Positions 5,166-24,693 of a DNA stretch of 64,000 bases are shown here, piece after piece. The DNA is from Strigamia acuminata (Eukaryota; Arthropoda; Chilopoda; Geophilomorpha; Linotaeniidae), in assembly GCA_949358305.1 (NCBI GenBank), contig OX442322.1:7562001-7626000 (forward strand). The letters are read 5' to 3'. The number at the start of each line of letters is the position of its first letter. Position 1 is the stretch's first letter. The position numbers and the translations under genes are program-made. The notes beneath the pieces were generated by a model. The model had not been told where the DNA came from. It did no database searches and saw nothing but the letters and a program-made list of their open reading frames with translations.

Positions 5166-5209
5166 TAAAAAATTTTTTTTATTGTTAGTTACACATCAAT
5201 TGGGCATAT

Positions 5210-5727
5210 TGTTACGTGGCCAGACTGACTACTGTTTGACCACGTAAATACTTTATTATTAAACTGGGGGTTTGTACTTACATTAAGTTAAACTAGCATT
5301 TAACTGTGTTGCTAATAAGAAGGAAATAAAGAGGACTCATTGTATTATTAATAAAATATAACTGTATGTTTATTAAATCATAAATACAATCTGAAATGAA
5401 CCAAAGATTAACTTAAAACTAAATCTTATAAAACTATCTTAAATCTAGTAAGCATGAATAACTTTGGTGGGTGAAGAACCTCAAGATGCCGCGGCAGTAC
5501 CTGCCCGACAACCTCTCGGTATGAAAGCTCGGAATGAACTGACATTTCAGTTCTCCTCATCAGCCAAGTAAACTTGGGTGATTCTACTATTACTCAATGG
5601 GTAAATTAGTGAGATCATTCGCTTAAGGCGAACTCTAGTGAGGGTTTACAGCATTAATTCGAATCGTTTAGTTACGGAAACGAGGTGGCGACAACTGGTT
5701 CACAGTGTGCTCGTCAACCTCGTAACA
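5210..5727 (-). repeat. 3' LTR of outer gypsy element
   Basis: 518 bp with TG...CA ends, matching 24087-24604 throughout by eye. It is the 3' LTR because the element reads on the minus strand. Confidence 0.95.
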
Positions 5728-6220
5728 GCCCCCTCCTTTAGATTTTTGGACCCCAAAAACAAGTTATTTAACTAAACAAACTCCCTTGTTGTTCATGCTT
5801 ATATATGAGTTCATTCCCTGTTATTCATGCTTACTTTCACAAAATTTATACTTTAAACAACATTTACTAAAAACAATTTCAAATTACAAAAATTCAAAAT
5901 CATATGTCAATTATTACACAAATACACTTTCAAGATTAACACTTTTTTGATGTTTTTCTCACTTATATTAATTTTTTTGTTTACAGTTTTCCTATTTTCT
6001 ATACAACTAATAATTCAAAAAAAACAATATACACTACATTCAATGTGAATGAAAATGAAAACAATATCAAAATCAAAAAAATAATATCAACTTCCAATAA
6101 TAAGAAAAAAAAAACCATGTCTCTGCTCGCTCCAGTACACCTGGGCTCACATCATTGACAAATAATACAAAATAAATTATACACAAAAAAAAATAATTTC
6201 ACACAACACTTAATGTCCGA
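5728..6220 (-). other. 3' untranslated part and polypurine tract of outer gypsy element
   Basis: Directly against the 3' LTR the minus strand reads AAAGGAGGGGGC (5728-5739), a polypurine tract for plus-strand DNA priming. The rest up to ORF3 is AT-rich with no coding signal. Confidence 0.75.
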
Positions 6221-7582
6221 TTAAGGCTGGTTTTCCTCCTTTTCGAATGGGATCAACTTCTCGTGTAAGATCTCGTACACTATACGCTGGCGCAAATCAA
6301 TCGGGTGGCCATGGCGCATGTTGTCCCTGTCTTCGATATATCGGCGGGCAAAATATAAGATAGTGGGCCCGCAGCTATCGCCGTCCAGCTGTTGCATACG
6401 GGGCGGGTCCCACTTCTCATAGCCCCGTGGAAAAACCATTCCAGCCCCAACAATACAATTATGCACTCGCTCCCAAGCAGGGCAACTGAAAGTCAGAACC
6501 CCACTCGGATCGTAGAGCGTTACCTGTGTTGGAAATTTGGTCCAATCGACCACAAACAATTGCCAGTGATCGATTTCCGGTATAGGAAAAATCCAAATTG
6601 ACTTCCCATAATGGTCATGGGTTTTCTTCATCCAGCTCCATGCTTCTGGAAACCGCTCGGCGTCTAGCATCATTTCGACAAAGTCGACTCTGACTGCCCA
6701 TACTCGTTCATTAAATTTTGCGAGCATTCGCAAATAATGATCAATCACACTTGGATGAACCCAAGCCCTTTCACCTGGCGCAAGGTGTCCAAGAGACGCC
6801 ATTTCCCTATTGGTTATAATTATGGACGGGTCATCTGACATAGTAATCGCTGTTTCATGCTTTGGTCGATAACTAAAAGCTACCGTTGCTTCCAACGCCT
6901 CCATCTGTTGATCTCCTTGTAAACGAACGCGATAGAGTATCAGTTGTTTTGGCAAAATTACACAAGGGTCTTCTTTATACTCGCGCCGCCCGAGCGCTTT
7001 CGCACGCTGGATATTGCGTCTGATCTTGGCCTCATACTGAAGCAATTTATCTGCCGCACGAAACCATGCTTCAAAGACCAACCGTCCATCAAGGCCTTTC
7101 AGACCTTTTTTTCTCACTTCCTCGGTCATACAGCGCTGCTCGACTCTAAGTTCTCCAAGACGCTTCTCATTTCGGGTTACTGTCTTCTCAGCCTGCTTCT
7201 TGATGACTTGAAGTCCCTTTTTCGTGAATGCGCGCTTTTCCGCTGTATCCGCCATTCTTCTCCTTTGCTCACAGCGTTTTCGGCGCTCAATCTTGCTACG
7301 TTGTTTCGGCGTCAAGGGCTTGTCATATACTTTCGGCCGCGCACCGAGTTCTTTACGTTCGGAGAATGGTCGCTTAAATGTTACCAGTTCGGACAACGGT
7401 TTAATGGGAACAGTTGCAATGTCTTCCTCCTCAGCCAAGACATCCAAGTGTTCCAACTCCGACTGCCTGTCATATAAGTCAAACATCTGGGTCGAAACTC
7501 CCGAACACACGGAAATATTGTCGTCTTCGTCTGAGCTGTCTTTTACGTCCATCCGACTAAATTTTCCCGTCATATCGTCCAT
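6221..7582 (-). CDS. ORF3 of outer gypsy element: Ulp1/C48-like cysteine peptidase
   Basis: A 453-aa protein in the position where env would lie. The N terminus is acidic and serine-rich (SSDEDDN). A lysine/arginine-rich helical region spans roughly residues 90-200. The C-terminal third has the C48 layout: His339 in DHWQLFVVDW, Asp358 in LYDPSG, Gln398 and Cys404 in QLDGDSCGP. Yeast Ulp1 uses His514, Asp531, Gln574 and Cys580, so the Gln-to-Cys gap (6) is the same and the His-to-Cys span (65 against 66) is nearly so. Family members cleave SUMO or related isopeptide and peptide bonds; the substrate here is unknown. The ATG at 7582 starts MDDMTGKFSRMD, alignable with the inner element's MENMASKFDRMD, which supports the start. 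A TTTTTGCACATATTAG acceptor ends at 7589, seven bases before the ATG, suggesting expression from a spliced mRNA. Confidence 0.8.
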   Translation of the reverse strand: MDDMTGKFSRMDVKDSSDEDDNISVCSGVSTQMFDLYDRQSELEHLDVLAEEEDIATVPIKPLSELVTFKRPFSERKELGARPKVYDKPLTPKQRSKIERRKRCEQRRRMADTAEKRAFTKKGLQVIKKQAEKTVTRNEKRLGELRVEQRCMTEEVRKKGLKGLDGRLVFEAWFRAADKLLQYEAKIRRNIQRAKALGRREYKEDPCVILPKQLILYRVRLQGDQQMEALEATVAFSYRPKHETAITMSDDPSIIITNREMASLGHLAPGERAWVHPSVIDHYLRMLAKFNERVWAVRVDFVEMMLDAERFPEAWSWMKKTHDHYGKSIWIFPIPEIDHWQLFVVDWTKFPTQVTLYDPSGVLTFSCPAWERVHNCIVGAGMVFPRGYEKWDPPRMQQLDGDSCGPTILYFARRYIEDRDNMRHGHPIDLRQRIVYEILHEKLIPFEKEENQP

Positions 7583-8143
7583 TCAAGTCTAATATGTGCA
7601 AAAATAAATTAAATTCATTAATTACAATTGATTAATGGCCAATACAATTCATGTTCACAATCAATTTGTCTAAATTTCGTTAAACTTTTAACTTTATACA
7701 ATATTCAAATTATTTCATCTAAACCAATTAAATATTCATAGTTATTTCTATTAAATTTTAAAATTAAATGTCAAGTTAACATTTCAAAAATGTGCGAAGT
7801 TCTCTTTATTCACTGGAAAAATGGCGATAGATTCGTTTCGTTTTGTTCACTTTCGGCACTTTTATTAATATTATCCAAAGCTGGAGAAAAATGTCTCAAA
7901 ATTGTTCAAATCAACCAGTAAATTCGAGTTATTCTTGGTTCACTGCAAATAACTTGCGTTCGCCTCAAAAAACAAGAAAATACAACTTCAAAATCGTGTC
8001 ACGTCTCGTCTGTGTTCATATTAACTTCCGTCAATTAAAAGTACCTACTTTCACAGAAAATATGCGAAATCCTCGTCAATCACACTCGGAGAATAACAAT
8101 TCCCTTCGCTCACTGCAAATAACTTGCGTTCCTTAAAGAAAAG
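7583..8143 (-). other. Spacer between pol and ORF3 of outer element
   Basis: About 560 bp of AT-rich DNA without a long frame. It contains the candidate 3' splice site just upstream of ORF3. A repeated phrase (TTCACTGCAAATAACTTGCGTTC) occurs near 7939 and, as TCACTGCAAATAACTTGCGTTC, near 8110; the shared part is quoted only in outline here. Confidence 0.5.
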
Positions 8144-10686
8144 CTAGTAAAATGCAGTGTAATCTTGGCGTGGTTGCGATCTAAGTCGTCGTGACCGGAA
8201 ATCACTTTCAGCAGGACGTCGCGCATGCGTATCGGCGCCAACAGCATTTGCGACACCTGGTGATGGTTTCTGCAACCGATTCTTCTTGCTTTCGTCTGGC
8301 GACGATTTTAGCAACTGATTTCGCTGTTCTAACTCAACTTCCTTTTTCACTCGACGTGCCTCAGTTTCTTTCGGCCCGTAAATTGCCTTCAGTCGCTCTT
8401 TTTCCGTCAGAGCCGGTAAATCCGACGCTTTATCTTCGGATTCAAAGAAATTCCGCAACGAAATTTGATCATCATCATCAATAAACCTTTCCTTCGCTCC
8501 TACTTTAGGCCTATCTCGCGGATCATCGTCCTTCTTCACAATTTCCGCATTTTGATCGTCTTTTTGCGAACTTCTTTGCACTTCATCAGAAAATGTTACT
8601 TTCTTTGGTGGTAAATCCTGCAGAATAGTTTCTGGAATTTCCTCTCTCGGCTTGTATGGTTTTAAACGCTCAACATTGACAATACTAGTTTTCTTTCCTG
8701 ATGAATTCCTCACTTCATAATCGTTTGGCGCTGTGCGTCTAACTATCTCATATGGTCCAGAAAATGGTGGCAGGAGTTTTTCGCTTAACCCTACTTTCCT
8801 ATTTGGGGTTTTCAAGTAAACTAGTTCTCCTGGTTCGAATTCAACCACAATTCTGTCCAAATCAAATCTTCTCTTGCTTTTCTCACTCTGCCATTCTAGT
8901 CTTTCGTTGGCAATTTTCCGCATCTCCCTCATAAATCTAGAAGTGCGAAGAGTGAATTCCTTTCGCGGAAGGTTCAAGTTCACGTCCACACTCAAATCAA
9001 CTTCATAACCTTTCAACAAATAATATGGGGTATATCCAGTTGTTTCATGGACTGCTGAATTATAGGAGAAAATGACAAATGGTAAAAATTCATCCCAATC
9101 TGTGTGATCTTTATTAGTATAACATGTCAACATTTTAGCAAATGTTGCATTGAATCTTTCCGTTAATCCGTTGGTCCTTGGATGGTACCCGGATGTAGAT
9201 TTGTGCTGGGATTTAAACAGTGCTGATACTTCATTGATCATTTCATTCCTGTACTCTGTCCCCTTATCGCTGAGTATCTCGCGTGGACTTCCCTCTTTGA
9301 GCATTACCTCGAATACAAGAGTTTTTGCTGCTTCCAACGCTGTACATGCTGGAGCCGCTCTAGCAATGACTGCACGCGATAAATAATCAGTGATGACAAA
9401 AACAAATTTATTTCCACTATTTGAAACTGGAAAGCTTCCTAACGTGTCTATACCAATCCTCTCGAACGGTCTTGAAATCGTCGACCAAGGTTGTAATAAA
9501 CCTTTTTGTGGAGTGGTCATTGACTTACTTCCTGCGCAATGTGGACAACTGAGAACGTAATTCCTTACGTCCCTGTATATCCTCGGCCAAAAGAATCTTA
9601 CTCTAATCCTTTTCCACGTCTTATTTAGGCCGAGATGAGCACCTACGAGCCCGTCATGCATTTCTTCTAACACTTGCTTACGTAAATGCTGCGGTACTAC
9701 TAAAAGGTTTCCTTCCATGTTTAGAGAATTGTAGCTTTTCTTTCTAAACAACGTATTATCCAGGAGAACGAACTGTTTTAAAGGACGTTTCCTGTTTCTT
9801 GGAAGTTGCTCAATGTTCTCCATTGCGGTGATGATCTCCAAAATTTTCTCATCCTTACGCTGTTCTACAGGTAAGTTGAGTTTTTCGAGAAGTAGTAAGG
9901 GAATAATTTCTTTTTCTTCCTCACCAATCTCTTCTTGGATTCGGCTAAGAGCATCTGCGTCCGTGTGCTTCTTGCCTGACTTATGCATCACATCGTAGTC
10001 ATAATCTACCAGTTGTAAACTCCACCTGGCCAATCTACCGTTGGGATTTTTCACCTTATTCAGCCATTGTAACGCAGAATGGTCTGTCACAATTGTAAAT
10101 TTCCTACCGTAAAGATATGGTCTGTACTTGTTAATGCCGAATATTATGGCTAAACATTCTCTTTCCGTAGCTGTGTAATTCTGTTCCGCTGTACTTAACA
10201 ATCGACTGGCGTAACAAATCACATGTTCTTGCTTGTTAATACGCTGCTTCAAAATTGCACCGAGCCCATAAGCACTTGCATCCGTAGATACAATGAATGG
10301 CTCTGCAAAATTTGGATGTGCCAATACTGGTACCGTAACTAAAGCTGTCCGTAAGGCCTTAAACGCTGTTTCCTGTGGTGGTCCCCAATCAAAAGCTTCA
10401 TCTTTGCGAGTTAAGTTGGCTAAGGGCTTAGATACGTCCGCAAATCCTGGAATAAACTTTCGATAATACGAACATAAACCCAAAAACCCTCTCAACTGCT
10501 TCAAATTTGTTGGTTTTGGAAATTTAGCTACACTTTCCAAATTACGTGGATCAGGTGACACTCCATCAGAATCAACTATGTGGCCTAAATATTTGATGGT
10601 ATTAGTACCAAACGTACATTTGCTGAGTTTAACCTTTAAGTTTGCCAACCGCAGCTTGCTGAAGACAGCATCGAGATCCTGAAGAT
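8144..10686 (-). CDS. pol: pol of outer gypsy element, 3' part (end of RT, RNase H, integrase)
   Basis: This continues the frame broken at the inner insertion. It starts QDLDAVFSKLRLANLKVKLS, the thumb region of reverse transcriptase. Next come the RNase H domain (STDASAYGLGAIL, TDHSALQWL, DADALSR), the integrase zinc region (HDGLVGAHLG...CPHC) and the DDE core (IGIDTLGSFP, DYLSRAV, SDKGTEYRNEM, NGLTERFNATF). The C-terminal region contains LVYLKTPNRKVGLSEKL and a basic, charged tail ending RQDYTAFY. No internal stop was seen. Together with 20575-22078 it would make one pol frame; the gap is exactly the inner element plus one copy of its AGAT duplication. Confidence 0.9.
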
Positions 10687-11255
10687 TGTCACGTGTACGA
10701 ACCGTGTCGATTAATGCGCGATTCGTAACACGTAATTTGATCCATTATTGGTTTAATGTTGCTAAATTTCGGCAACAGATGGCGTGGCGATTGGAAACCG
10801 TCATCGTCGTCTGTTAGACCGATCAATTCGATTAAGGGTAGAATAGGAGATTTCCTATGAACTGACCCACTCTAAGACAGCTCACTTAATCTTATGTTGC
10901 TTTTCAGAGAACATCAATTTAACTTACTAGCCTAATGTCGCCCGATAAACAAAGGGTACGGCTGACGGCTATCTTCTGATATTATGATTTATGCAATTTA
11001 TCACCCAGTTGTAAAGTGTTATTTAGTTGTACTGAATTAATATAATATAAATGCCATTTCATTCAAGGTTAATAGTGATGATTTATTCGAGTTGTAAAGC
11101 GCACAATTAATGAAGGTCGAACAGACTTTGTCTGTCCGATCTAATAAAGATCAGAATTGAATTTAAAACTATAAACAACGCCTCATTCTTTCTCTATCAC
11201 TCAGTCAAAATACAGTTGCGTGGAACTCGGATTGAAGCCCAGAATCCACGTAACA
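10687..11255 (+). repeat. 5' LTR of inner gypsy element
   Basis: 569 bp, TGTCACG...CGTAACA ends, matching 20006-20574. It contains an internal palindromic phrase near its start (CGTGTACGAACCGTG... then ...ATTCGTAACACG). Confidence 0.95.
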
Positions 11256-11257
11256 AA

Positions 11258-11270
11258 TGGTGGAGATGCG
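11258..11270 (+). other. Primer-binding site of inner gypsy element
   Basis: TGGTGGAGATGCG begins two bases after the LTR and starts with the TGG expected to pair with a tRNA CCA end. The same word follows the LTRs of the outer element (24071-24083, with one extra T) and the third element (61262-61274). I could not assign the tRNA. Confidence 0.7.
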
Positions 11271-12042
11271 AGTCTTTCCCATACCGCATAAAAATTAGAA
11301 TAAAATTTGAAAATTAGCGAAAATTTTGGAATTAAGCTTAGTTTTGCTTGAGTTTACCTAGTGATTAGTTTTTCAGGAAATTGGAAAATTAAAATTGGGA
11401 AATTAAAACAATTAGAATTGAAATTTGTGGAAAATTAGTTCAAAAATTATATAAAATTTTGAAAAACTGTAACTTGATTTGCATACAGATGACTCATTGA
11501 TAAGAGTGATAGAAATGAAAAAGGTGACTCATTGCTAATAAAGATAATAGACTTAATTGAGTTTTAAAATTGGTGAAATTAAGAGATAAAATATAACAAA
11601 ATAACTTTGAATATTGAATTGAATGAAGTGATATTGAGTGATATTTATTGTGGAGTTTAATTGTGAATTGAATGTGAATGGTGACGTTTATAATTATTAA
11701 ATAAGGAATTTAGTGTTTTCCATTTTGATGAAAGTGTATATTAATAAAATATATAGTTTGAATTTATTAATGAATTTTTGAATTTCAGGATATTTTTGTA
11801 ATTATTTACTAATAAAAAGTTTTCTTAAATATTTATTACTAATGAATTTAATAAAGTTTTGAAATATGACCGTGAAAATTTAATTGTTTTGAAAATTTTG
11901 AAATTTGATAGTGAAGATTGAATTGTTTGAATTGTTTAATCATTTACTTATTTTTCAGAGAGTTAAAAGTGTTATAGTGTTATTTACAATTGAATAAACT
12001 GATTCTAAGTGCATCATAGGATTGTGTCTTCAGTTTAATTAA
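11271..12042 (+). other. Leader of inner gypsy element
   Basis: AT-rich, no long frame. A stop at 12040-12042 marks the upstream limit of the open gag frame. Confidence 0.6.
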
Positions 12043-13542
12043 TTAATCATTGCGGAATCCAAACGCTATAAACTGCCAGAGTTTGTAGCAGATTATCTGT
12101 TTTCCAAAAAGGAACCAGGAGAACCTGATACACCCAAAGAGTTACTGGATGATAAAGTAACTGGTCGGAAGTATAGATCAAAATCCAAAGGTGAACAAAA
12201 AACACAAAAAAGGGAAGATCTTGAAACTCCCGAGCAGCGTAATAAAAGATTAATAGATCCAGAGGTGTATAATTGGTTATTGCCTAAGGAACAATCAGAA
12301 TTAGGCGATCTTTTGGAAAGGGTACAGGTAAATTTGGACGACGTATTTGAGGACGCAGCCAAAGATATTGAAGAGCACGAGGAATCAATTCAACCAAAAG
12401 TGGAAATAAAAATTGAACAATCTTCTACTAAAATGGCTAATGCTTCGCCATCATCAGAACTGGTAGCAATACAGACAGTGTTACAAAACTTAGTGGTCAA
12501 TAGAAGAAATCCAGTTGATTTTGATCCGGCTACAGGAAATATTGACACGTGGTTGATTGGATATGAGGATACGATCGCCGATGATACTGAACGTATTAAG
12601 CATCTGTCAATTGTGCTGAAATCTTCCGCATCATCATGGTATTTAGATCAACTTCCACTGTATCCGACTAGAACATGGACACAATGGAAAGATGCGTTGA
12701 AGACTAAATTTAGACGACAAATAACAACGATTTTGTCGAAATTACAAGCAATGCAGCAGAAGGATGGAACGGCTTTGGAACACATGCAGAAGATATTAAA
12801 AGAATGTTCTTTTGCAAGACCATCATTTACTGAAGAGCAAAAGATATTTCATGTGTTTCAGACACTTAAAAAGGCGACTAGAGATAAATTAGTAGTCAAC
12901 TTTCCAAAGACGTTGGATCAACTAACATCTCAACTTGGGTTATTGGAAGCTCATGCATTCAACGAGGACCCTGCAGAAGTTTTACTAACCCTACTGCAAA
13001 AAGCTGTTGATACACCTAGCAAGGTGACACCAAGTTGCTTGGTAGAACCGAGCGACGTCAATAAAACAAAAGACGAGTTGTTAGCAGAGGTCAAAGTGCT
13101 AAGACAACAGCAGCAGTTTGGGGATGTCCAATATGCAGAGGTTACTCCAGTCTTCTACCAAAACCAATGGTATACGCCACATCCAAACCAGGCGCAGTTC
13201 TATAATAGAGGAAACTTTAGAGGACGACCTGGACAACAACGTGGATGGTGGAATAACAACAGTAATTGGAACCAAGGTAGAGGATGGAATAATAGAGGTC
13301 AAAACAGAGGTAACTGGAATAATTCAGGTCAAGGATTCCAACAACAATACCCACAACAGCAATGGAATCCGCCACAACAGCAAGGGAACCCACCACAAGG
13401 TCAAAGACAACAGGGGAATCCAAATAACCAAGGTCATCCTAAAAATCCAAATTATAAAGGTAAAAATTTTATTGAAAATTACCAAGGCCGAGGAAATCGA
13501 GGAGCCCCACGTGGTGGACCACCTAATGCATCGGGAAACTAG
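12043..13542 (+). CDS. gag: gag of inner gypsy element
   Basis: The frame is open from 12043 to TAG at 13540-13542 (499 sense codons), but the first in-frame ATG is at about 12433 (MANASPSSEL). The first 130 codons are acidic and charged and have no ATG. The outer element has the same arrangement with MADPITVL at the matching place, so translation may begin at MA(N/D), or upstream at a non-AUG codon or after splicing. The capsid-like part includes GNIDTWLIGYEDTI and RTWTQWKDALKTKFRRQ. The C-terminal 110 residues are rich in Gly, Arg, Gln and Asn (RGNFRGRPGQQRGWW) with no CCHC knuckle, so RNA binding probably relies on RG-rich sequence. The frame ends directly after a GGGAAAC heptamer. Confidence 0.85.
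   Translation, partial: LIIAESKRYKLPEFVADYLFSKKEPGEPDTPKELLDDKVTGRKYRSKSKGEQKTQKREDLETPEQRNKRLIDPEVYNWLLPKEQSELGDLLERVQVNLDDVFEDAAKDIEEHEESIQPKVEIKIEQSSTKMANASPSSELVAIQTVLQNLVVNRRNPVDFDPATGNIDTWLIGYEDTIADDTERIKHLSIVLKSSASSWYLDQLPLYPTRTWTQWKDALKTKFRRQITTILSKLQAMQQKDGTALEHMQKILKECSFARPSFTEEQKIFHVFQTLKKATRDKLVVNFPKTLDQLTSQLGLLEAHAFNEDPAEVLLTLLQKAVDTPSKVTPSCLVEPSDVNKTKDELLAEVKVLRQQQQFGDVQYAEVTPVFYQNQWYTPHPNQAQFYNRGNFRGRPGQQRGWWNNNSNWNQGRGWNNRGQNRGNWNNSGQGFQQQYPQQQWNPPQQQGNPPQGQRQQGNPNNQGHPKNPNYKGKNFIENYQGRGNRGAPRGGPPNASGN
13533..13539 (+). promoter_or_regulatory. Candidate -1 ribosomal frameshift site between gag and pol
   Basis: GGGAAAC is positioned in frame as G GGA AAC and is followed at once by the gag stop TAG. 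Pol lies in the -1 frame and is open across the site, continuing LEWPQRRNN and a lysine/arginine run into protease. GGGAAAC is a known X XXY YYZ heptamer type. The outer element has G AAA AAC then TAG at the same place (22088-22079, minus strand). Confidence 0.75.
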
Positions 13543-16500
13543 AATGGCCACAAAGACGAAATAACAAAAAGAAGAGAAGAAGAAAAAGGAAGTTAGAAAT
13601 TATTGAGTTGAACGCCACAGATGAACTTTTGCAAATTCCAGTAGTGGTGAATGGTATGGAGATAACAGGTGTCTTGGATTCTGGAGGTTATCGTAATATT
13701 ATTAATGAAGATTTGGTAAGAACATTGCAGCTCAAATATCAACCATGTCCATACATTCGACTTAGAGTTGTAGATGGTTCAATAATAATCCCAGAAGGAA
13801 AAACCAAGATCACTATTGACGTTGGACAACAGCAACACACCATTGAAGTGCTGATCGTCAACGGATTTGGCCACCATTTACTGCTTGGGCATAGCTTTCT
13901 GACATCTGCGAGGTGTAAACTTGATTAAGACCACCAGAAGATCTTTGTAGGCCCAAAAGATGAACAACAAGAAGTTTTCCCAATGTCAAAAAATCATACC
14001 GATCAAAATTACATAGCTCGAGTTTTGAAACCTATTACTATACCAGCTTTACATGAATGTATAGTACCAATAAAAATTGCAAAGAAAGTAGACGATGAAT
14101 TATTTATTGAACCACTTAGTGGAGTAGTAGACCGATTTGGAGTGATTTGCTGTAAAACATTGACCAAATTCAGAAAAGGTGAAGGAGTTCTGCGAGTTGC
14201 AAATCCGACTAAAAAGACAATTTATTTAGGACGTAATTCAGCAATTGCAAAAGCTTTTTATGTAATTGAGTCTGGCGTGCTTGATGAAAAAAGAGATGAT
14301 CATTTTGACTTTAGCACGTCTATGGCAAATGACAATATGACGCCATCACAACAAGAGCTGATGCTACAATTGTTGAAGAAAAATTCAGATAGATTTGCGA
14401 AGACTGATAATGATTTAGGCAGAGCTCACACGATTAGGCATCGAATAGATACTGGAGATTCTCCTCCAATCCATTTACAACCTTATAGACGATCAATTAA
14501 GGAAAAAGAAATCGAGGATGCTGAAACAAAGAAGTTACTTGAGCAAGGAGTCATTAGAGAATCCGAGAGCCCATGGAGTGCACCAGTACTGCTCATCAAG
14601 AAGAGAGATGGCAAATGGAGATTTTGTGTAGATTGGAGACGTTTGAATGCAGTGACAAAGAAAATGGTGTATCCCTTACCACGTATAGATGACACCCTAG
14701 ATCAGCTAGCGGGTGCAAAGTATTTTTCAATGATGGATCTTATTCAGGGATATCACCAAGTAGAAATAGATGAACAAGATCGTGAGAAAACAGCGTTCAC
14801 TACTTCAAGCGGACACTATGAGTTTAATGTCCTTGGAATGGGATTATGTAACAGTCCAGCAGCCTTTTAAAAATTGATGAATAAGGTACTTGGTGACCTC
14901 CTGGGAAAAGTATGCATAGCATATCTTGACGATTTGATAGTGTTTTCAAAGACTTTTGACCAGCACCTCGTCGATTTGGAGGCAGTTTTCGAAAAGCTGA
15001 GAGCAGCGAATTTAAAAGTCAAACTGAGTAAATGTACGTTTGCCACACACACCATACGATACCTCGGACATGTGGTTGATGCTGAAGGTATTTCACCGGA
15101 TCCCAGGAATCTGGATTCTGTGGCCAAGTTTCCAATTCCTGTGAACGTTAAACAACTACGTGGTTTTCTTGGATTATGCTCGTATTACCGGAAATTTATT
15201 AAAGGTTTTGCGGACATTTCCAAACCTCTGGTGAATTTAACCAAAAAGGATGAAAAGTTTGATTGGGGACCTCCCCATGAGAAAGCATTCCACACGCTTC
15301 GAACAGCATTAATAACAGTGCCGGTGTTAGCGCATCCAGATTTTACTCAGCCTTTCATGATTTCATGCGATGCAAGTGCCTATGGATTAGGAGCTATTTT
15401 GAAGCAAAAAGTCAACAATCAAGAGCGTGCCATCGCTTATGCAAGTCGTATGATGAGCACAGCAGAAATGAATTACACTGCAACTGAAAGGGAAATGTTA
15501 GCAATTATTTTTGCTATTGAAAAGTTTAGACCGTACTTATATGGACAGAAATTCCAAATTATTACCGACCATTCTGCCCTCCAATGGCTGAAAGGAGTCC
15601 GAAACCCAAATGGACGTCTAGCCAGGTGGGCGCTGCAACTAGCTGAGTATGATTTTGAAATATTTCATAAAAGTGGCAAGAAGCACACAGATGCTGATGC
15701 CCTGAGTAGGATCCAGGAAGAGTTAAGTGAAGAAGAAATCAAAAAATTGCCTTCGCTTCTCTTAGAAAATTTGGACCTCCCTGCTGAGCAGAGGAAGGAT
15801 CCTAAACTTCTGGACCTCATAACAGCGCTAGAAAACCAAGAGCAACTTCCAAGAAAAAGAAGACGACCTCTAAAGCAGTTCGTTCTTCAAAACAAAACGT
15901 TGTTCAGGAAGAAAAAATTAAATAGTTCCCTGAACATGGAAGATTTGTTACTAGTAGTTCCAAAACAACTTCAAACAGATGTATTATATGAAATGCATGA
16001 TGGATTACTAGGAGCTCATTTGGGTTTGGCAAAAACGTGGAAACGTATAAGAACACGATTCTTTTGGACAAGAATTTATAGGGACGTTAGAAATTATGTC
16101 TTGTCCTGCCAAAGTTGCGCGAAAGCAAAAACGATGACTACACCAGCGAAGGGACTAATGCAGCCATGGTCAACAGTTTCAAAGCCTTTTGAGCGAATTG
16201 GAATAGATACGCTTGGACCATTTCCATTATCACGTCTTGGAAATAAATATGTTTTTGTTGTGACTGATTATCTTTCGAGAAATGCAATAGCCAGACCAGC
16301 AGCAGTAGCTACAGCTTTAGAAGCAGCGAGAACGTTGTTATATGAAGTAATTCTGAAAGAAGGCAGTCCAAGAGAGATTTTAAGTGACCGTGGAACAGAA
16401 TACAGGAATAAAATGGTTGAGGAAGTCTCAAATATGTTTAAAAGTTTGCATAAAACTACGTCAGGATACCATCCAAGAACAAATGGATTAACTGAGAGAT

Positions 16501-17342
16501 TTAATGCGACATTCGCAAAAATGTTGCAAAGTTACGTTAATGAAGAACATACTGACTGGGACGAATTTCTTCCATTTCTCCTGTTTTCATATAACACGGC
16601 CGTTCATGAAACAACAGGTTATACACCACATTATCTTTTACGAGGATATGATGTGGATTTGACAGTAGATGTAAATTTGGATTTGCCACAGAAAGAGTTT
16701 ACTTTAAGAACAGCGAAATTCATTCGAGCAGCCAGGAAAATTGCAAATGAGAGGCTTGAAAAACAATCAGCAAAAAGCAAGAAAAGGTTTGATGAAGATA
16801 GAGTCAACAAGGAATTTGAACCAGGTGAATTGGTATATTTGAAAACCATTAACAGAAAAGTTGGCTTGTCAGAGAAGCTTTTACCGCAATTTTCCGGCCC
16901 ATATGAAATTGTGCGAAGAACTGCACCGAATGATTATGAAATAATCAATTCAACAAGAAAGAAAAGTGATATAGTGAATGTAGAAAGACTGAAACCGTAT
17001 AAAGAACGAGTTGAACCAGAAATAGACGAAGTTTTGAAAGAATTACCAGAAAAGAAAGTGAAATTTGCTGATAAAGTAAAGAAAATCAGTAAAAAAGGAC
17101 AAAGTGTAGAAGAAAACATTAAAAAACCAGTCGAAATGACGAAAATCAAACCGAGAGAACGTTATATAGACGATACAGAACAAATCTCATTAAAGTCGCT
17201 ATTTGAACCACAGCCTTTGATAGGAACTAATGAAAATCAACTTAAAAATCCGCCACAAGATGGCGCAAATACACAAAAAGACGATTTCCGGTCGCGCAGA
17301 CTCAGACCGCAGAAACGAAAAGACTATCGTCATTGCTATTGA
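13542..17342 (+). pseudogene. pol: pol of inner gypsy element (protease, RT, RNase H, integrase) with two nonsense codons
   Basis: One continuous frame carries the aspartic protease (VLDSGGYRNII near 13673), RT (SPWSAPVLLIKKRDGKWRFC, FSMMDLIQGYH, AYLDDLIVF near 14920), RNase H (CDASAYGLGAIL, TDHSALQWL, DADALSR), the integrase HHCC region (HDGLLGAHLG near 16000) and DDE core (IGIDTLGPFP, SDRGTEYRNKM, NGLTERFNATF). The product ends DYRHCY. Two stops interrupt it: TAA at 13926-13928, where relatives have Tyr in LDYD, and TAA at 14868-14870, where relatives have Gln after SPAAF. Both are single-base changes by comparison. With LTRs that look identical, the element must have been copied recently, so the stops arose after insertion or its enzymes came from another copy. 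Confidence 0.93.
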
Positions 17343-18229
17343 TTCTTGCTACGGTGAACACGAACTCATAGTGTGACCCGGAAACAAAAATCTTTTTATT
17401 GTCTATTTATTTATTTATATTTTGTGTATAAAATTGTGTGTCAAAAGGTTTGTACGAATGATATTGATAATTTTAAGTGATTTTAGAGATGAATTTTGAG
17501 GTTTTAAACGTTTTTTTGAGCGATTTTCGTAAAGTGAAACTAATCGCCATGTTCGTTCATTCGTGTTAGAATTTTAATTAGGTGAAAATGTTTTAAACTA
17601 AAATTTTAAATAATTAGGAGTAAAATTTAATGACACATTAGTGTGAAATAAAATGATTTTAAAGCATAGATAAGAAGTAATGAAAGTGCGAATGGCGGGG
17701 ACGCGAAAGGACCCAGCACGATCTTCGGTCATCTGCATTGAATTTTAATTAGGCTTAATAATTTAGGTAAAGTTTTAAGATTATGAAATGCTGAATTTAA
17801 TAGCATAGTAGAGTAAATTAAAAATAAATTTCAAAGAGAAAATTTGGAAAATTTAGTTCTAACAACACAAATGATTCGAGACGCGATAAGTGAATTCATT
17901 GCAAATTTTGTTAAAATTGAATAAGTTTGATAAATGTAAATATGTTTCGATGGAAAATTGATTGAATTTAGATAGGAATAATTTATTGTAAATAAGTAAA
18001 ATGGAATAAGTTGATGTTTGTTTTTTTGAAAATATTAATGATTTTTTAAAGAAAACTTGAAAAATGAAAGAAAAATTTAATTAATTTGAAATTCTTTTAG
18101 GAAATTGTTAGAAGTTTGAAGTTTATTATGGAATATTTATTTGCAATAGGAATAATTTTATTTATTAGGCATAATATAGTTGATATTATTTAATTTTATT
18201 TTGTTTCGTTTTATTTTCTTCATAAGTAG
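17343..18229 (+). other. Spacer between pol and ORF3 of inner element
   Basis: About 890 bp of AT-rich DNA with no long frame. It ends in a long pyrimidine-rich run (TTTCGTTTTATTTTCTTC) followed by AG at 18225-18226 and 18228-18229, a candidate 3' splice site for an ORF3 mRNA. Confidence 0.55.
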
Positions 18230-18273
18230 GTTGGAATCGTTCAGTGCTTAGTGACAGTGCGAAGGACCGTCAA

Positions 18274-19716
18274 ATGGAAAATATGGCGAGTAAATTCGAC
18301 AGGATGGACATCCATTCGAGCTCAGATGAGAGCGACGAGTTCGAAATACCAGAATACGAACCAACCGAACCAATTGAAGTTGAGCCGATTGAACCAACTG
18401 AAGAGTCAACGGACTTAAACGACGTAATGCCTGATCAAGCGGAAGTAGAGATCGACCCGATGGCCATGTGGAATTGGTACGATAGAAGTATAGACTTGAA
18501 CAATCCAACAGCGGGTACCAGTAAAACGATTAAATTGGAAGACATAGTCCAGTTCGAGCGCCCATTTACCAACAGACGTAAGAAAGGTCATAGCCAGCCA
18601 CCAATGATGCTAGATCCAAACGACCCGAAGTACATCAAAAAGAAAAACCGTCAGGACCGACGTAAGAGAAATAGAACCTTGCGTCGTAAAACTGAAGGTA
18701 TCGAGAAAAAGAAATTAACACCAAGGGGTTTGAAAATTATTCGAGAGCAGTCTCAGCGAGCGGTGAGGAGAAATTTCCGTCGTTTGCTGGAGATTAACGT
18801 TGAACGGAGAAATCTAGCGGCGGCGGTTATTCCTCTTCAACCGAAGGGCGCGGAAGGACGACCGATCTTTCAAGCTTATAAGCAGGAGGCGCAGGTATTG
18901 ATTCTGGAAGAAGCGAAGATTCGTAATAAAGTGGATCGCGCAAAAGAATTAGGGAAAAGAACAGCGCTTTATGATCCGCGAATCAACCTACCGTTACCAC
19001 CAGTTGACTATGAAGTCAAGATCTCTGCAGAAAAAGCGATGGAAGCCCTGGAGAAATGGCCGGAATATTTTCAACATCACCCGGATGAGCAAATGTACGT
19101 GTCGGAAGTGCGACCACACATCGCGGTCGGCCCTAGAGAAATGATCTCTTTAGAAGCATTAATGCCAGGCCGCATATCTTGGGTGCACGACACGGTGGTT
19201 GATTATTATTTGGGTATGTTGATGAAGCGATATCCGATAGTTTATGCGTTTCCAGTGGCAACCGTGGCAAAACTAATGAAAGGCGAGGATAAACCCAATA
19301 CATGGCGTTGGCTCCGCGACCAGGTCGACCAACCGAAAAAACAGCACAAGATTTGGTTCTTCCCCATACCGGCGGAGGAACACTGGATCATATACGTGTT
19401 CGATATGGAGCGTTCTCCGCCGTGTGTGGGGTTCTACGACTCGTCGGGAAAGCCACACGTGGATCATTTCACGTGGTGGTGTAATATTAAACTCAATTTA
19501 ATAGGTTCTGGATACGAAATACCGAGTTACGAGCCATGGGAACCACCAAAAGCAGCCCAGCTTGATGGGGACAGCTGCGGGCCCATGATTTTACATTTTG
19601 CTCGTAGATACGTTGAATGCCGAGACCTGATGAAACTAGCGGAGGGCTCGGAATTGCGAGTTCGAATCCTGTACGAGATCCAGCAAGGAAAATTCGAACC
19701 TTTTGAAGAAATTTAA
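18274..19716 (+). CDS. ORF3 of inner gypsy element: Ulp1/C48-like cysteine peptidase
   Basis: A 480-aa protein from the ATG at 18274 (CAAATGG context). MENMASKFDRMD aligns with the start of the outer ORF3, so I prefer this start to an in-frame GTG 30 bases upstream. Acidic serine-rich N terminus (SSSDESDE), then repeated EPTEPIE-like acidic text, a basic middle (RRKRNRTLRRK) and a C-terminal peptidase domain: His370 in EEHWIIYVFD, Asp389 in FYDSSG, Gln429 and Cys435 in QLDGDSCGP. The His-to-Cys distance (65) equals that of the outer copy, although most surrounding residues differ. Retention of all four positions in two diverged families implies selection on peptidase activity. Candidate roles are polyprotein processing, removal of SUMO or ubiquitin-like tags, or countering host silencing; none is shown by the sequence. 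Confidence 0.82.
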   Translation: MENMASKFDRMDIHSSSDESDEFEIPEYEPTEPIEVEPIEPTEESTDLNDVMPDQAEVEIDPMAMWNWYDRSIDLNNPTAGTSKTIKLEDIVQFERPFTNRRKKGHSQPPMMLDPNDPKYIKKKNRQDRRKRNRTLRRKTEGIEKKKLTPRGLKIIREQSQRAVRRNFRRLLEINVERRNLAAAVIPLQPKGAEGRPIFQAYKQEAQVLILEEAKIRNKVDRAKELGKRTALYDPRINLPLPPVDYEVKISAEKAMEALEKWPEYFQHHPDEQMYVSEVRPHIAVGPREMISLEALMPGRISWVHDTVVDYYLGMLMKRYPIVYAFPVATVAKLMKGEDKPNTWRWLRDQVDQPKKQHKIWFFPIPAEEHWIIYVFDMERSPPCVGFYDSSGKPHVDHFTWWCNIKLNLIGSGYEIPSYEPWEPPKAAQLDGDSCGPMILHFARRYVECRDLMKLAEGSELRVRILYEIQQGKFEPFEEI

Positions 19717-20005
19717 GTTTGAATTTGTTTTGATTTATTTTTGTACCTTTCATTTCAGTTCAAAAGACATGTAAAATAAAATATAGAAATACAAAAGATC
19801 TGTATAGATTAAACTAAAAGGGAGTACATGTAAAAATTGTGAAATTTTCTTTTGATTTTGAGAAATAATTGTAAAACAACTGAGTGATAACTTGTATAAA
19901 AAGCAAAAAGCAACCGAACATTCCTTAAGAATGTCCGATTATAAAAGAGACCTGTCTGGACCGAAATTTGTAATTTGGGGTCCAAATCACAGCAAAAAAG
20001 GGAGT
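19717..20005 (+). other. 3' untranslated part and polypurine tract of inner gypsy element
   Basis: Short AT-rich tail. AAAAAAGGGAG ends at 20004, directly before the 3' LTR, as expected for a polypurine tract. Confidence 0.75.
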
Positions 20006-20574
20006 TGTCACGTGTACGAACCGTGTCGATTAATGCGCGATTCGTAACACGTAATTTGATCCATTATTGGTTTAATGTTGCTAAATTTCGGCAACAGATG
20101 GCGTGGCGATTGGAAACCGTCATCGTCGTCTGTTAGACCGATCAATTCGATTAAGGGTAGAATAGGAGATTTCCTATGAACTGACCCACTCTAAGACAGC
20201 TCACTTAATCTTATGTTGCTTTTCAGAGAACATCAATTTAACTTACTAGCCTAATGTCGCCCGATAAACAAAGGGTACGGCTGACGGCTATCTTCTGATA
20301 TTATGATTTATGCAATTTATCACCCAGTTGTAAAGTGTTATTTAGTTGTACTGAATTAATATAATATAAATGCCATTTCATTCAAGGTTAATAGTGATGA
20401 TTTATTCGAGTTGTAAAGCGCACAATTAATGAAGGTCGAACAGACTTTGTCTGTCCGATCTAATAAAGATCAGAATTGAATTTAAAACTATAAACAACGC
20501 CTCATTCTTTCTCTATCACTCAGTCAAAATACAGTTGCGTGGAACTCGGATTGAAGCCCAGAATCCACGTAACA
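20006..20574 (+). repeat. 3' LTR of inner gypsy element
   Basis: 569 bp matching 10687-11255 with no difference seen by eye. AGAT target duplication follows at 20575. Confidence 0.95.
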
Positions 20575-22078
20575 AGATGCTGATCAAATGTCTTTGAAAA
20601 TATTATAAGGTCGTCAATATAAGCTATACAGACCTTGCCAAGAAGATTACCAAGCACCTTGTTCATCAATTTTTGAAACGCAGCTGGGCTATTACATAAT
20701 CCCATTCCTAGGACGTTAAACTCAAAATGTCCGCTTGAAGTGGTAAACGCTGTTTTTTCACGATCCTGTTCATCTATTTCGACTTGATAATATCCTTGAA
20801 TAAGATCCATCATCGAAAAATACTGGGCCCCTGCCAGTTGATCTAATGTATCGTCAATCCTGGGCAGTGGGTATATCATTTTCTTTGTGATCGCGTTTAA
20901 CCTCCTCCAATCGACACAAAATCTCCATTTACCGTCTCTTTTCTTGATGAGAAGTACTGGTGCACTCCATGGACTTTCTGACTCTCTAATGACTCCCATC
21001 TCAAGCAACTTTCTGGTCTCTTCTGCCTCTACTTCTTTTTCTGCGATTGAACGTCTATAAGGCTGCAAATGTATTGGATCATGGTCCCCCGTATCAATTT
21101 TGTGTTTAAATGTTGTTACTCTACCTAAGTCTTTGTCTGTGGCTGCAAATCTATCCTGATTCCTTTGAAGTAACTGCTTCATCTGCTCTTGTTGGCTTTT
21201 GTTCATCTTATCTTTAGCAATCGAGGAGTCAAAGTCAAAGCAATGTACTTGCTTTTCATCTGTCAACTCAACCGCTTTGGTTGAGGAGTCAGTGCAATAC
21301 ACTTGCTTTTCATCCAACAACCCGATGTCAATAATGTAATACGCCTTACCAATTGCAGATTTCTCCTTCAGAAAGACTGATTTGTTTGTTGGATTAGCCA
21401 CACGCAGAACTCCTTTACCATACTCAAAATTTGTTAATGTTTTACAACACAAAATTCCAAACCTATCTATTACATTTCCTAGAGGTTCCATAAACATTTC
21501 TGTGGTTAGTTTTGTATTTAAATAAACTGGTATAACGCATTCATGCATTGGTGGAATTGAGATATTCTTCATTACTCTGGCAACATAACTCTGGTCCGAA
21601 AATGATCTATTTATTGGAAAAACTGCTTCTTCTACTCCACTATCATTGTTCCGGCCCACAAAGATTTTTTGTAAATCATAATCGACGACAGTTCTCGTTG
21701 ACCTCATGAATGGATCCCCCAATAAGAGCTGATGATGAAATCCTGACACTATTAACACTTCCACTCTATAGGTCAGTTTTCCAATTGCAATGTTCATTTT
21801 TGTTTTACCCACTGGAACTACCAAATCCTTTCCTATCCCACGTAGCCTAATGTTAGGGCTGGGTGAATAATCCAATTGAAGAGCTATTGCAACTTCTTCG
21901 CTTAGCAGGTTTCGTTTGGCTCCAGTGTCCATTACCGCTTTTATTTCCATTTCTTTTACAATTACTGGGATCTCCAACAATGATTCTGATACCTGAACGT
22001 CAATTATAATTATCTTACTCTTCTTCTTTTGTCTTTTCCTTTTCTTTGGGTGGCAACAATTTCTCTGTGGCCGTTCAA
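20575..22078 (-). CDS. pol: pol of outer gypsy element, 5' part (protease and most of RT)
   Basis: Open from the -1 frame just past the gag stop: LVERPQRN, a lysine/arginine run, then EIPVIVKEM and the protease motif VMDTGAKRNLL, with LLLGDPFM as the second conserved block. RT follows with IHLQPYRRS, SPWSAPVLLIKKRDGKWRFC, FSMMDLIQGYYQ, FNVLGMGLCNSPAAFQKLM and AYIDDLIIF. The frame is cut after FDQHL by the AGAT duplication and the inner element. The region between protease and RT (about 120 residues beginning SYVARVMKNISIPPMHEC) is shared by all three gypsy elements here. Sense continues at 10686. Confidence 0.9.
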
Positions 22079-23425
22079 CTAGTTTTTCGAATTTTGGGCC
22101 TTCGTTTGTGCCTGAGGATTAGGGTTTCCATCTTGCTGTTCACCTCTTCTCCTCTTTTTATTCCACTTCCAGCTGTTACTTCCACCTCTTTCCTGTTGCT
22201 GCTGTTGCTGTTGTTGTTGCCTGGGTGGATTGTAAAACTCACAGCTGAAATGATGATAACATCCGCATGAACGGTTATTAGAATTATTACTATTGTTAGT
22301 ATTATAATTATTGTAATTAGGATTAAAGCCTTGTCTTCCACCTCTACTTCTACCTCCTTGATTATACTGTCCCCTATTCCTTATTGGCGCATACCACTGA
22401 TTTTGTATCAGTATCGACTCTTCATCCAGCAAATCCACTGACTCTGCTTCTAACAATCGCCGCTTTAAATCAGCGACTTCAGCTAACAATTCAGTGTGGG
22501 TTGGTTGGGTCCCCACGGTTCCACTCAGTTTACCTGCTGTTACCGGGATCGCCTTCTCGTCCACGATTTTTTTAAACGCTGCAAGTAGAACATCTGCTGG
22601 GTCTTTTACTTTATGACTTTCGAATAACTTAATTCTCTCTTCCATATCCGCCAAAGTCTTCGGGAATACAGTAATCAACATCTTTTGCATTTCCGGCTTC
22701 AATCCTTGAAAAATATAATTAATCTTCAAATTCTCAGGTAATTCTGGTCGCGCATAAGCACATTCGGCCAAGACCTTCTTCATAAATGCATCGGCTTTAC
22801 CATCTGAATGCCTCATAAAATGAAGAGTGTTCAATACATTTTCCTGGCTTTTCCTGAACTTCTTTTCGATTTGTGGCTTCCATTCTGTCCAAGTCCAGGT
22901 TGGATTCGTTTTATATTGTTCCACAAACCATGCCAGTCCGTCAGTCTTAAGGGCTAACGGCAATTGTTTCACTCGTTCATCATCTGATGCTATTGTAGCT
23001 TCATAAGCCACAAGCCATTGGTCGATGTTACCTTTTTCTGTATCATAACAAACAACTTCGCGCTTTTGTACCAAAATACCCTTGAGAAGATCAGTCAAAA
23101 CTGTTATTGGGTCCGCCATCTTGGATACAGTTCCTTTTGATGTGGATTCCTTTGATTTTACTGGTGTTAATAATTCAAATACTGATTGAAAAGACTTCGA
23201 TTGCGCAAATTTTAATGGGGTTGCAAAAACAAGTTTATCATCCAATATGGAAGTATTTTGCTCAACCTCCTTTATTCCAGGTTCCGACTGTGAAGTTGTT
23301 TTTCTTTTTCTAACCGCTACTTTGGAATCATCCACTGTGCTTACTAATTCTCTTTCTAATTCTTGATTCTTTAAGTCCAGTAGATTATCCACTTGCGCCT
23401 GTGATAACTTAACTGGCTGATCCAC
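22079..23425 (-). CDS. gag: gag of outer gypsy element
   Basis: Open frame of about 448 codons whose first codon at 23425 is GTG; the first ATG is at 23119 (MADPITVLTDLLKG), matching the inner element's MANASPSSEL. Capsid-like text includes GNIDQWLVAYEATIAS and WTWTEWKPQIEKKFRK, alignable with the inner gag. The C terminus has a Gly/Arg/Asn/Gln-rich stretch and a run of nine Gln. A CGCYHHFSC cluster lacks CCHC spacing, so I do not call a knuckle. It ends in AAC TAG after a G AAA AAC heptamer, with pol in the -1 frame. Confidence 0.85.
   Translation of the reverse strand: MDQPVKLSQAQVDNLLDLKNQELERELVSTVDDSKVAVRKRKTTSQSEPGIKEVEQNTSILDDKLVFATPLKFAQSKSFQSVFELLTPVKSKESTSKGTVSKMADPITVLTDLLKGILVQKREVVCYDTEKGNIDQWLVAYEATIASDDERVKQLPLALKTDGLAWFVEQYKTNPTWTWTEWKPQIEKKFRKSQENVLNTLHFMRHSDGKADAFMKKVLAECAYARPELPENLKINYIFQGLKPEMQKMLITVFPKTLADMEERIKLFESHKVKDPADVLLAAFKKIVDEKAIPVTAGKLSGTVGTQPTHTELLAEVADLKRRLLEAESVDLLDEESILIQNQWYAPIRNRGQYNQGGRSRGGRQGFNPNYNNYNTNNSNNSNNRSCGCYHHFSCEFYNPPRQQQQQQQQQERGGSNSWKWNKKRRRGEQQDGNPNPQAQTKAQNSKN
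22082..22088 (-). promoter_or_regulatory. Candidate -1 frameshift site of outer element
   Basis: G AAA AAC directly before the gag TAG (22081-22079). It is less canonical than the inner element's GGGAAAC because the first codon slips to GAA, but position, stop and -1 pol frame are the same. Confidence 0.5.
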
Positions 23426-24070
23426 TGTTAAGCCTTAAATTATACCTTCACTTTATTCACACAACGCTGTAGCAACTCACAACTTTCACTAACCCTGAAA
23501 CAAACTTATGCACAATTAATTATCACAATTAGTCACTAATTCAAAATAAATTTCAATAACAAAAAAAAATTATTATTATTTCCTGAAAAATAATCAAAAT
23601 TAATCATCAAAATCAACATAAACTTCTACATAAACCAAAAAGAAAACATTTCCTATAATTGAATCATTATTAATATAAGTTTTATCATTAAACAAACATT
23701 GAATATTCACCACTCTTAACCTCCAAAACAACCTCATTTTATTATATAAATTCAACTTGGGTAAATATCTTTAATAAATTCCAATATGTAAATCTTATTA
23801 GTGCACTATAATTAAATATTCAACTGCAATTGACCCTAAAAGAAAATTTTCACAATGAGTCACCTTTCAATCTTATCACTCATGCAAATGAGTTTGCAAC
23901 TTTTCAAAATTTTATATGAATTTCACTTGAATTTTACTGAATTTTAATGCAAATTTGTACGGATTTCAAATGGATCTTCTAATTTTTAGCAAATAACTGG
24001 CCAATTTCACTTTACTTTTACTACTTTTCACTACTTTTAGCCAATTAATGGGTCTCAAATAGAAAGAACC
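23426..24070 (-). other. Leader of outer gypsy element
   Basis: AT-rich leader between the primer-binding site and gag; no coding signal. Confidence 0.6.
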
Positions 24071-24083
24071 GCAATCTCCACCA
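24071..24083 (-). other. Primer-binding site of outer gypsy element
   Basis: Minus strand TGGTGGAGATTGC, three bases from the 5' LTR. Same word as in the other two gypsy elements apart from one inserted T. Confidence 0.65.
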
Positions 24084-24086
24084 CTT

Positions 24087-24604
24087 TGTTACGTGGCCAG
24101 ACTGACTACTGTTTGACCACGTAAATACTTTATTATTAAACTGGGGGTTTGTACTTACATTAAGTTAAACTAGCATTTAACTGTGTTGCTAATAAGAAGG
24201 AAATAAAGAGGACTCATTGTATTATTAATAAAATATAACTGTATGTTTATTAAATCATAAATACAATCTGAAATGAACCAAAGATTAACTTAAAACTAAA
24301 TCTTATAAAACTATCTTAAATCTAGTAAGCATGAATAACTTTGGTGGGTGAAGAACCTCAAGATGCCGCGGCAGTACCTGCCCGACAACCTCTCGGTATG
24401 AAAGCTCGGAATGAACTGACATTTCAGTTCTCCTCATCAGCCAAGTAAACTTGGGTGATTCTACTATTACTCAATGGGTAAATTAGTGAGATCATTCGCT
24501 TAAGGCGAACTCTAGTGAGGGTTTACAGCATTAATTCGAATCGTTTAGTTACGGAAACGAGGTGGCGACAACTGGTTCACAGTGTGCTCGTCAACCTCGT
24601 AACA
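24087..24604 (-). repeat. 5' LTR of outer gypsy element
   Basis: 518 bp, TG...CA ends in either reading. Matches 5210-5727 with no difference seen by eye. ATAT duplication at 24605-24608. Confidence 0.95.
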
Positions 24605-24693
24605 ATATAGATGATAATGTACACAATCCGAGGTTACAATACACAAACGACCACGGTTTTATCCAATACCAACCAGTCTACGAGTTACTATAA

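Follow-up and report, generated by a model that had tools for sequence, protein, structure and literature searches.

We analysed a 64,000-nucleotide stretch of the genome of the centipede Strigamia acuminata (GCA_949358305.1, contig OX442322.1, positions 7,562,001 to 7,626,000; hereafter the window). It holds two nested long terminal repeat (LTR) retrotransposons of the Ty3/gypsy type, and each of these carries, after gag and pol, a third open reading frame (ORF3) predicted to encode a SENP/Ulp1-type cysteine protease. The outer ORF3 is an open frame of 453 residues on the minus strand (6221-7582), with an acidic N-terminus, a basic middle and a C48/SENP-like catalytic domain at about residues 250-445. 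A preliminary description of the window had noted a 453-residue frame in the env position of an LTR retrotransposon, called this the outer copy, and listed His339, Asp358, Gln398 and Cys404 in the order and spacing of Ulp1/adenain-type peptidases. We found that the frame is the third ORF in an element of the Ty3/gypsy type and that the four residues are exactly at these positions; the element is indeed the outer one, as its identical 518-bp LTRs enclose a second complete element that lies in its pol.

Architecture of the nested elements

The outer element is an LTR retrotransposon of about 9.5 kb on the minus strand (5210-24604), which is interrupted by the inner element, a complete second element on the plus strand (10687-20574) inserted in the outer pol. 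Both elements contain gag, then protease (PR), reverse transcriptase (RT), RNase H and integrase in the Ty3/gypsy order, followed by a non-coding gap and ORF3. The two LTRs of each element are identical and have TG...CA ends. The outer LTRs are 518 bp long (5' LTR, 24087-24604; 3' LTR, 5210-5727, TGTTACG...CGTAACA; minus strand), and the inner LTRs are 569 bp long (5' LTR, 10687-11255, TGTCACG...CGTAACA; 3' LTR, 20006-20574; plus strand). Target-site duplications of 4 bp flank the outer element (ATAT; 5206-5209 on the 3' side and 24605-24608 on the 5' side), and AGAT flanks the inner one (10683-10686 and 20575-20578). The candidate tRNA primer-binding site TGGTGGAGAT lies a few nucleotides past both 5' LTRs, and purine runs ahead of both 3' LTRs are candidate polypurine tracts. 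A common TTTGGGGTCCAAA word starts about 30-33 nucleotides before the 3' LTR of both elements.

The outer gag (22079-23434, minus strand) is 35% identical to the inner gag over 371 columns. The outer pol is cut by the inner element into a first part with PR (DTG) and RT (YIDD) at 20579-22118 and a second part with the end of RT, RNase H and integrase at 8144-10686, where a GPY/F motif was recognised by eye; both parts are on the minus strand, and no stop breaks the frame on either side of the inserted element. In the inner element, gag (12043-13542, plus strand) matched Ty3_capsid with an E-value of 2.3e-6 and 27.6 bits, just below the cut-off of 29.1, and pol (PR-RT-RNase H-integrase, 13527-17342, plus strand) is frame-shifted from gag. 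The inner ORF3 (18274-19716, plus strand) has 480 residues from its ATG, and its open frame starts at 18226. Both elements encode a retroviral-type aspartic protease (DTG/DSG). Upon comparison of the two elements by BLAST, the identity was highest in two pol pieces (67%), followed by PR (43%), ORF3 (36%) and gag (35%), and the MAFFT alignment of the two ORF3 proteins gave 39%. The inner pol holds two in-frame stops (13926-13928 and 14868-14870) although the inner LTRs are identical.

ORF3 is homologous to C48 cysteine proteases

The length of the outer ORF3 exceeds chance, since the longest open stretch in 300 composition shuffles was 157 codons, compared with 453 for ORF3; a chance ORF was thereby ruled out. 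The phmmer search against PDB chains revealed that the C-terminal 200 residues of the outer ORF3 matched SENP1 with an E-value of 6.6e-8, and the match reached 7.7e-11 with the two ORF3s of the window as an aligned pair and 3e-11 with a profile built from 15 ORF3 copies. At E≤1, 17 of the 18 distinct PDB sequences found with the 15-copy profile are named SENP1, SENP2, SENP3, SENP5, Ulp1 or XopD, while the 18th is a poxvirus protein named only MPXVgp068 (E = 0.77). The Ulp1/C48-like identity proposed in the preliminary description was thus borne out by sequence profiles, which return clan-CE proteases of family C48. The Pfam search that it called for gave a divided answer: the window ORF3s scored 12.7 and 13.3 bits against C48 (PF02902), below the cut-off of 20.7, but two other genomic copies exceeded it (25.2 and 23.9 bits). 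PF02902 appeared at E≤1 in 12 of 15 ORF3 copies, with a best value of 1.2e-4, and no Pfam family other than C48 had an E-value below 0.05 in these copies. The inner ORF3 domain also showed a weak match to Pfam C57 (poxvirus I7; E = 0.0066, below the cut-off). Identity between ORF3 and SENP1 is low (20-26%), and the AlphaFold models of the two window sequences were of low confidence, too poor to inform fold searches.

The outer ORF3 contains H339-W340, D358, Q398 and C404-G405-P406, in the order H-D-Q-C. In the sequence alignment, W274 and W340 fall on tryptophans of SENP1, which we take to be W448 and W515 of Ulp1. In Ulp1, W448 and W515 form a tunnel around the SUMO Gly-Gly together with the catalytic triad and S513 (PMC9603560). 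The charge profile places a basic stretch after the acidic tail within the N-terminal half. Taken together, these sequence features identify ORF3 as a predicted SENP/Ulp1-type cysteine protease gene of clan CE, family C48. That ORF3 is homologous to C48 and, in view of the copies described below, a regular part of these elements is in our view close to certain.

Copies of ORF3 across the genome

The genome to which the window belongs (237.5 Mb in 157 contigs) contains at least 95 ORF3 matches in several families (474 candidates, 93 scored); this number counts matched stretches, some copies appearing as two pieces, and it is a lower bound because the window's own inner ORF3 is missing from the list. 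Full-length matches account for 76 of the 95, and 66 of these 76 are free of stops. The stop-free fraction in each class of identity with the outer ORF3 was 12/13 at 92-100%, 10/10 at 47-50%, 37/43 at 42-44% and 7/10 at 39-41%. From 30 rows, comprising 20 further ORF3 stretches (mostly picked stop-free), eight search loci and the two window copies, we excluded L006 with an internal stop and the partial L009 and aligned the others. The 28 aligned rows represent 27 places, since L001 and the outer copy of the window are one and the same. H339, W340, D358, Q398, C404, G405 and P406, as well as the putative tunnel residue W274, were invariant in all 28 rows of this mostly stop-free selection.

ORF3 is intact and under purifying selection. 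Among 18 tested pairs, which are not mutually independent, dN/dS was 0.04-0.17 in nine of the ten with dS below 1; the tenth gave 0.39, a value resting on only 12 changes. Of the others, one had a ratio of 0.08 at a dS of 2.97 and seven were saturated. We also inspected the context of ten further ORF3 copies and found integrase sequence directly upstream in all ten, although only its tail in the copy on C3. Matches to gag, RT and integrase were present in nine of the ten elements, although in two of these (C13:561608 and C13:1843994) pieces are broken or displaced. An LTR pair was found in five, with 100% identity in four and 99.8% in the fifth; an open ORF3 is therefore present in recent copies from several families. 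Target duplications read ATAT in five of seven elements including the window pair and CTAT or AGAT in the others, five of the seven having been read by eye.

These copies also settle a doubt raised in the preliminary description, namely that the frame might represent a captured host exon confined to this copy. A single captured exon was ruled out by the at least 95 genomic matches; with several families, integrase upstream in ten of ten cases, well-supported splits common to the pol and ORF3 trees, and an ORF3 clade apart from a host gene whose domain is split as if by introns, we give this explanation practically no weight.

Origin of ORF3 and exchange between lineages

A tree of 16 C48 domains placed the seven ORF3 rows in one clade (100/100). 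Human SENP1 grouped with a host SENP1-like gene apart from this clade (99/98), the domain of the host gene being spread across several open stretches, as if by introns. None of six C48 rows from other elements or ORFs of this genome fell inside the ORF3 clade. Close kinship of ORF3 with the host SENP or with the genome's other C48 domains was accordingly not supported. The backbone of the tree is weak, with long branches and odd letter make-up flagged and the nearest neighbour of the ORF3 clade left without support, and the source of ORF3 is therefore not fixed by this tree.

The pol and ORF3 trees of eight elements share three splits: inner with C1_29, C8 with C10, and the outer element with C12 and C1_62. 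For C4, the pol tree leaves the order of C4, C8 with C10 and the outer group open, and the ORF3 tree joins C4 with the outer group (90/95). Silent-site divergence (pS) differed markedly along the elements. Between the inner element (window 14871-19716) and C1_29 (L024/L035, C1:29.48 Mb), pS was 0.26 in the RNase H-integrase region and 0.85 in ORF3; between the outer element and C12 (L027/L039), it was 0.135 and 0.44, respectively; between C4 and C8, it was saturated in both regions. Because the silent sites of ORF3 are far more diverged than those of pol in two of three pairs, we attribute the difference to an exchange of the ORF3 end from one lineage to another by recombination; the difference at silent sites is too large for faster protein evolution. 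The comparison thus suggests that the ORF3 end was swapped between lineages in these two pairs. In both cases, the incoming ORF3 belongs to the same clade and has an intact active site. Most simply, the C48 gene would have been acquired once by one Ty3/gypsy lineage and then kept.

C48 domains of other kinds also occur in this genome. Two ORFs carry both a MULE transposase and C48 over the cut-off (L054, C1:47.59 Mb; L064, C1:9.69 Mb), and a third combines C48 with a MULE match below the cut-off (L063, C1:7.94 Mb); L054 and L063 also have PHD matches below the cut-off. The C48 matches of the genome include a 1075-residue ORF at six places and a 1083-residue ORF at nine. A 605-residue ORF (L062:1026-2840, plus strand; C1:50.73 Mb) combines an mRNA capping-enzyme domain (9.9e-48) with C48 (8.2e-6), both over the cut-off. 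C48 domains of a further type were present in ORFs of 1828 residues (L056:1094-6577, plus strand) and 665 residues (L055:2768-4762, plus strand), the former with a PHD finger over the cut-off and found at two places.

Expression of ORF3

ORF3 does not overlap pol; the two are separated by a non-coding gap of 561 nucleotides in the outer element (7583-8143, minus strand) and of 931 nucleotides in the inner element. In the outer gap, a T-rich tract and TTAG, 6 nucleotides before the ATG, resemble a splice acceptor. Where scored, a T-rich tract ending in AG lies 6-8 nucleotides before the ORF3 ATG in outer-type families, and this distance is 42-46 nucleotides in the inner type. With an acceptor defined as YAG after at least 11 pyrimidines in 16, 7 of 17 ORF3 rows passed, compared with 15% of background stretches. 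The ten other rows comprised five with YAG after 8-10 pyrimidines in 16 and five with AAG instead. This pattern suggests that ORF3 is made from a spliced mRNA, although splicing is what we infer from the acceptor-like sequence.

Proposed function and alternative explanations

C48 enzymes act on SUMO or related modifiers, cleaving behind their Gly-Gly, and related elements often keep an env gene at the position that ORF3 occupies. Our best explanation, to which we assign a probability of roughly one half as a whole, is that ORF3 encodes a gypsy-borne SENP-type protease of family C48 that removes SUMO and so raises expression or integration of the element. From the env position, the protein would probably be translated from a spliced mRNA. 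Its N-terminal half, with the acidic tail and the basic stretch, may target the enzyme, the basic part bringing it into the nucleus, and the C-terminal half would cleave after the SUMO Gly-Gly. SUMO could then be stripped either from silencing factors of the host on the chromatin of the element itself or from Gag or integrase complexes in the nucleus, and its removal would increase expression or integration. Within this explanation, catalysis is predicted from the conserved residues, which are also compatible with an action on SUMO, and SUMO is, with somewhat better than even odds, the main substrate. An anti-silencing role is more tentative, and we consider it rather less probable than its absence.

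SUMO has been reported to promote a silent chromatin state in yeast, plants and animals (PMC8131101), SUMOylated KAP1 has been reported to bind SETDB1 (PMC4303303), and for the activation of yeast Ty1 the authors of one study suggested decreased SUMOylation of unidentified factors (PMC8585004). Loss of Ulp1 itself, however, raises Ty1 in yeast (PMC8585004), and the sign of the SUMO effect is therefore not trivial. A wider picture, in which a Ty3/gypsy lineage acquired its own SUMO protease once as an anti-silencing module, exchanged it between families and retained its active site in a host-element fight over SUMO at element chromatin, is possible but on balance doubtful. If active, ORF3 would give the element a means of its own to counter a modification that takes part in transposon silencing in animals. 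It would also offer a clean test, with one cysteine and one assay, of whether SUMO removal helps a retrotransposon.

Other roles for the same domain have to be weighed. ORF3 might remove ubiquitin, NEDD8 or another Gly-Gly modifier, mainly shielding Gag or integrase from degradation; we judge this unlikely, since the best solved relatives by profile are SENP1, SENP5, SENP2, SENP3 and Ulp1, and no NEDD8 protease was found at E≤1. The role of adenain in adenovirus and the weak C57 match of the inner domain speak for a particle-maturation protease that cuts Gag or Pol, as does the Ulp1-like cysteine protease among the virion-type genes of Polintons (PMC5601938, PMC10175614). However, both elements already encode an aspartic protease with DTG/DSG, which makes a second maturation protease unneeded. 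Moreover, the two tryptophans of the Gly-Gly tunnel are invariant, and ORF3 is separate, starting 561 and 931 nucleotides past pol. This role is improbable.

Action at integration, where ORF3 would desumoylate factors of target chromatin or repair or carry integrase there and would not counter silencing, also has points in its favour: Ulp1 and OTU domains of Ginger transposases have been proposed to activate repair factors (PMC2836005), binding of nucleic acid by the basic N-terminal half is conceivable from its charge profile, and the target of the elements is a short one of 4 bp, which reads ATAT in five of seven. Nevertheless, ORF3 is not fused to integrase, and the preference for ATAT may stem from integrase alone; Drosophila gypsy has a similar target. 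We regard this role as a minor possibility. The env position itself would suit an envelope-type or structural protein with an inactive protease fold, but no transmembrane stretch was found in five ORF3 copies, whose highest 19-residue hydropathy was 0.69-1.16, and an env glycoprotein was ruled out on this ground. An inactive scaffold would not need the catalytic residues, all of which are kept in the 27 places, mostly picked stop-free, and we consider such a protein very improbable. The SENP-type protease that removes SUMO remains the explanation that we prefer.

Other features of the window

An open Copia-type gag-pol ORF of 1612 residues lies at 51413-56251 on the minus strand. Between integrase and RT, it carries a methyl-CpG-binding (MBD) domain (residues 1026-1073), which scored 21.5 bits against a Pfam cut-off of 21, and no Copia element with an MBD domain was found by title or abstract opening among the literature listed. 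This ORF is flanked by two stretches of one 187-bp satellite array, and 14-bp tandem arrays in inverted orientation lie at both outer edges of the satellite block (46346-46589 and 59744 to about 60650). Two ankyrin-repeat ORFs of 641 and 644 residues, uninterrupted and related to each other, lie in opposite orientation (40755-42680, plus strand; 43278-45212, minus strand); Pfam shows only ankyrin families in them, and they are presumably Fem1-like. A further ORF (39213-40160, minus strand) contains 12 tandem copies of the 11-residue unit NLDLQGIFAEE and constitutes a coding minisatellite.

Comparison with known systems

To place ORF3 among known proteins, we compared it with a protein database by a method that needs shared exact 5-residue words. 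The outer ORF3 had no homologue at E≤1e-3 among 4820 candidates, and the alignment of the two ORF3s had none at E≤1 among 6940. In the same database, pol as a control found 3050 relatives, animals included, among 7974 candidates scored, and these include relatives that are 50-51% identical across about 90% of the query; the database is therefore not blind to such elements. PF02902 occurred in none of the best 120 of the 3050 pol relatives listed. The closest named pol relatives listed were spider, tick and pseudoscorpion Ty3/gypsy pols (Trichonephila, Araneus, Rhipicephalus and Cordylochernes), which are about 40-43% identical to the query across 86-93% of its length. Prokaryote contigs gave no ORF3 match, and PHROGs gave none for the outer ORF3 and one at E = 0.18 for the inner. 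Viral contigs matched neither the ORF3 pair nor the 15-copy alignment, and they are uninformative because pol was also unmatched there. In the open-access literature, judged mainly from titles and abstract openings and with Repbase and subscription journals outside this scope, we found no gypsy element whose third ORF is of the C48 type, and none is described in the Ulp1 passages of PMC2836005, PMC10175614, PMC3212892, PMC5821449, PMC5601938 and PMC5240378.

SENP1, SENP2, SENP5 and yeast Ulp1 resemble ORF3 in the homologous catalytic domain, the H-D-Q-C order and the tunnel tryptophan pair. In contrast to them, ORF3 is encoded by a retrotransposon, is only 20-26% identical (to SENP1), has a 250-residue N-terminal half and, in the tree, is separate from the SENP1-like gene of the host. 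Among DNA transposons, Ginger1 and Mutator elements also carry Ulp1 domains, for which a role in repair at transposition has been proposed (PMC2836005). These MULE and Ginger1 elements are, like the elements described here, mobile elements with a C48 domain, but their domain is fused to the transposase, whereas here it has an ORF to itself, the third in an LTR retrotransposon. A C48 peptidase as an extra mobile-element protein is likewise found in the oomycete Cryptons CryptonF and CryptonS (PMC3212892) and, as an Ulp1-like protease, in Polintons (PMC10175614, PMC5601938). By description, these differ from the carriers of ORF3 in that Cryptons are tyrosine-recombinase elements and Polintons are large virus-like DNA transposons, neither being LTR retrotransposons.

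The layout described here, gag and pol followed by an enzymatic or env ORF3, is that of the bdelloid LTR elements Vesta, Juno and TelKA, whose ORF3 is a GDSL esterase, a DEDDy exonuclease, a fusion glycoprotein (env) or of small membrane types (PMC5408684). However, no protease is among these types, and the words 'SUMO' and 'peptidase' are absent from the main text of that report. Accessory domains named for retrotransposons elsewhere include the chromodomain, exonuclease and helicase (PMC6338049). With a conserved SENP-type enzyme regularly encoded by the third ORF in several gypsy families, two known things are joined: the Ulp1/SENP domains of DNA transposons, Cryptons and Polintons, and the capture of third ORFs by LTR elements.
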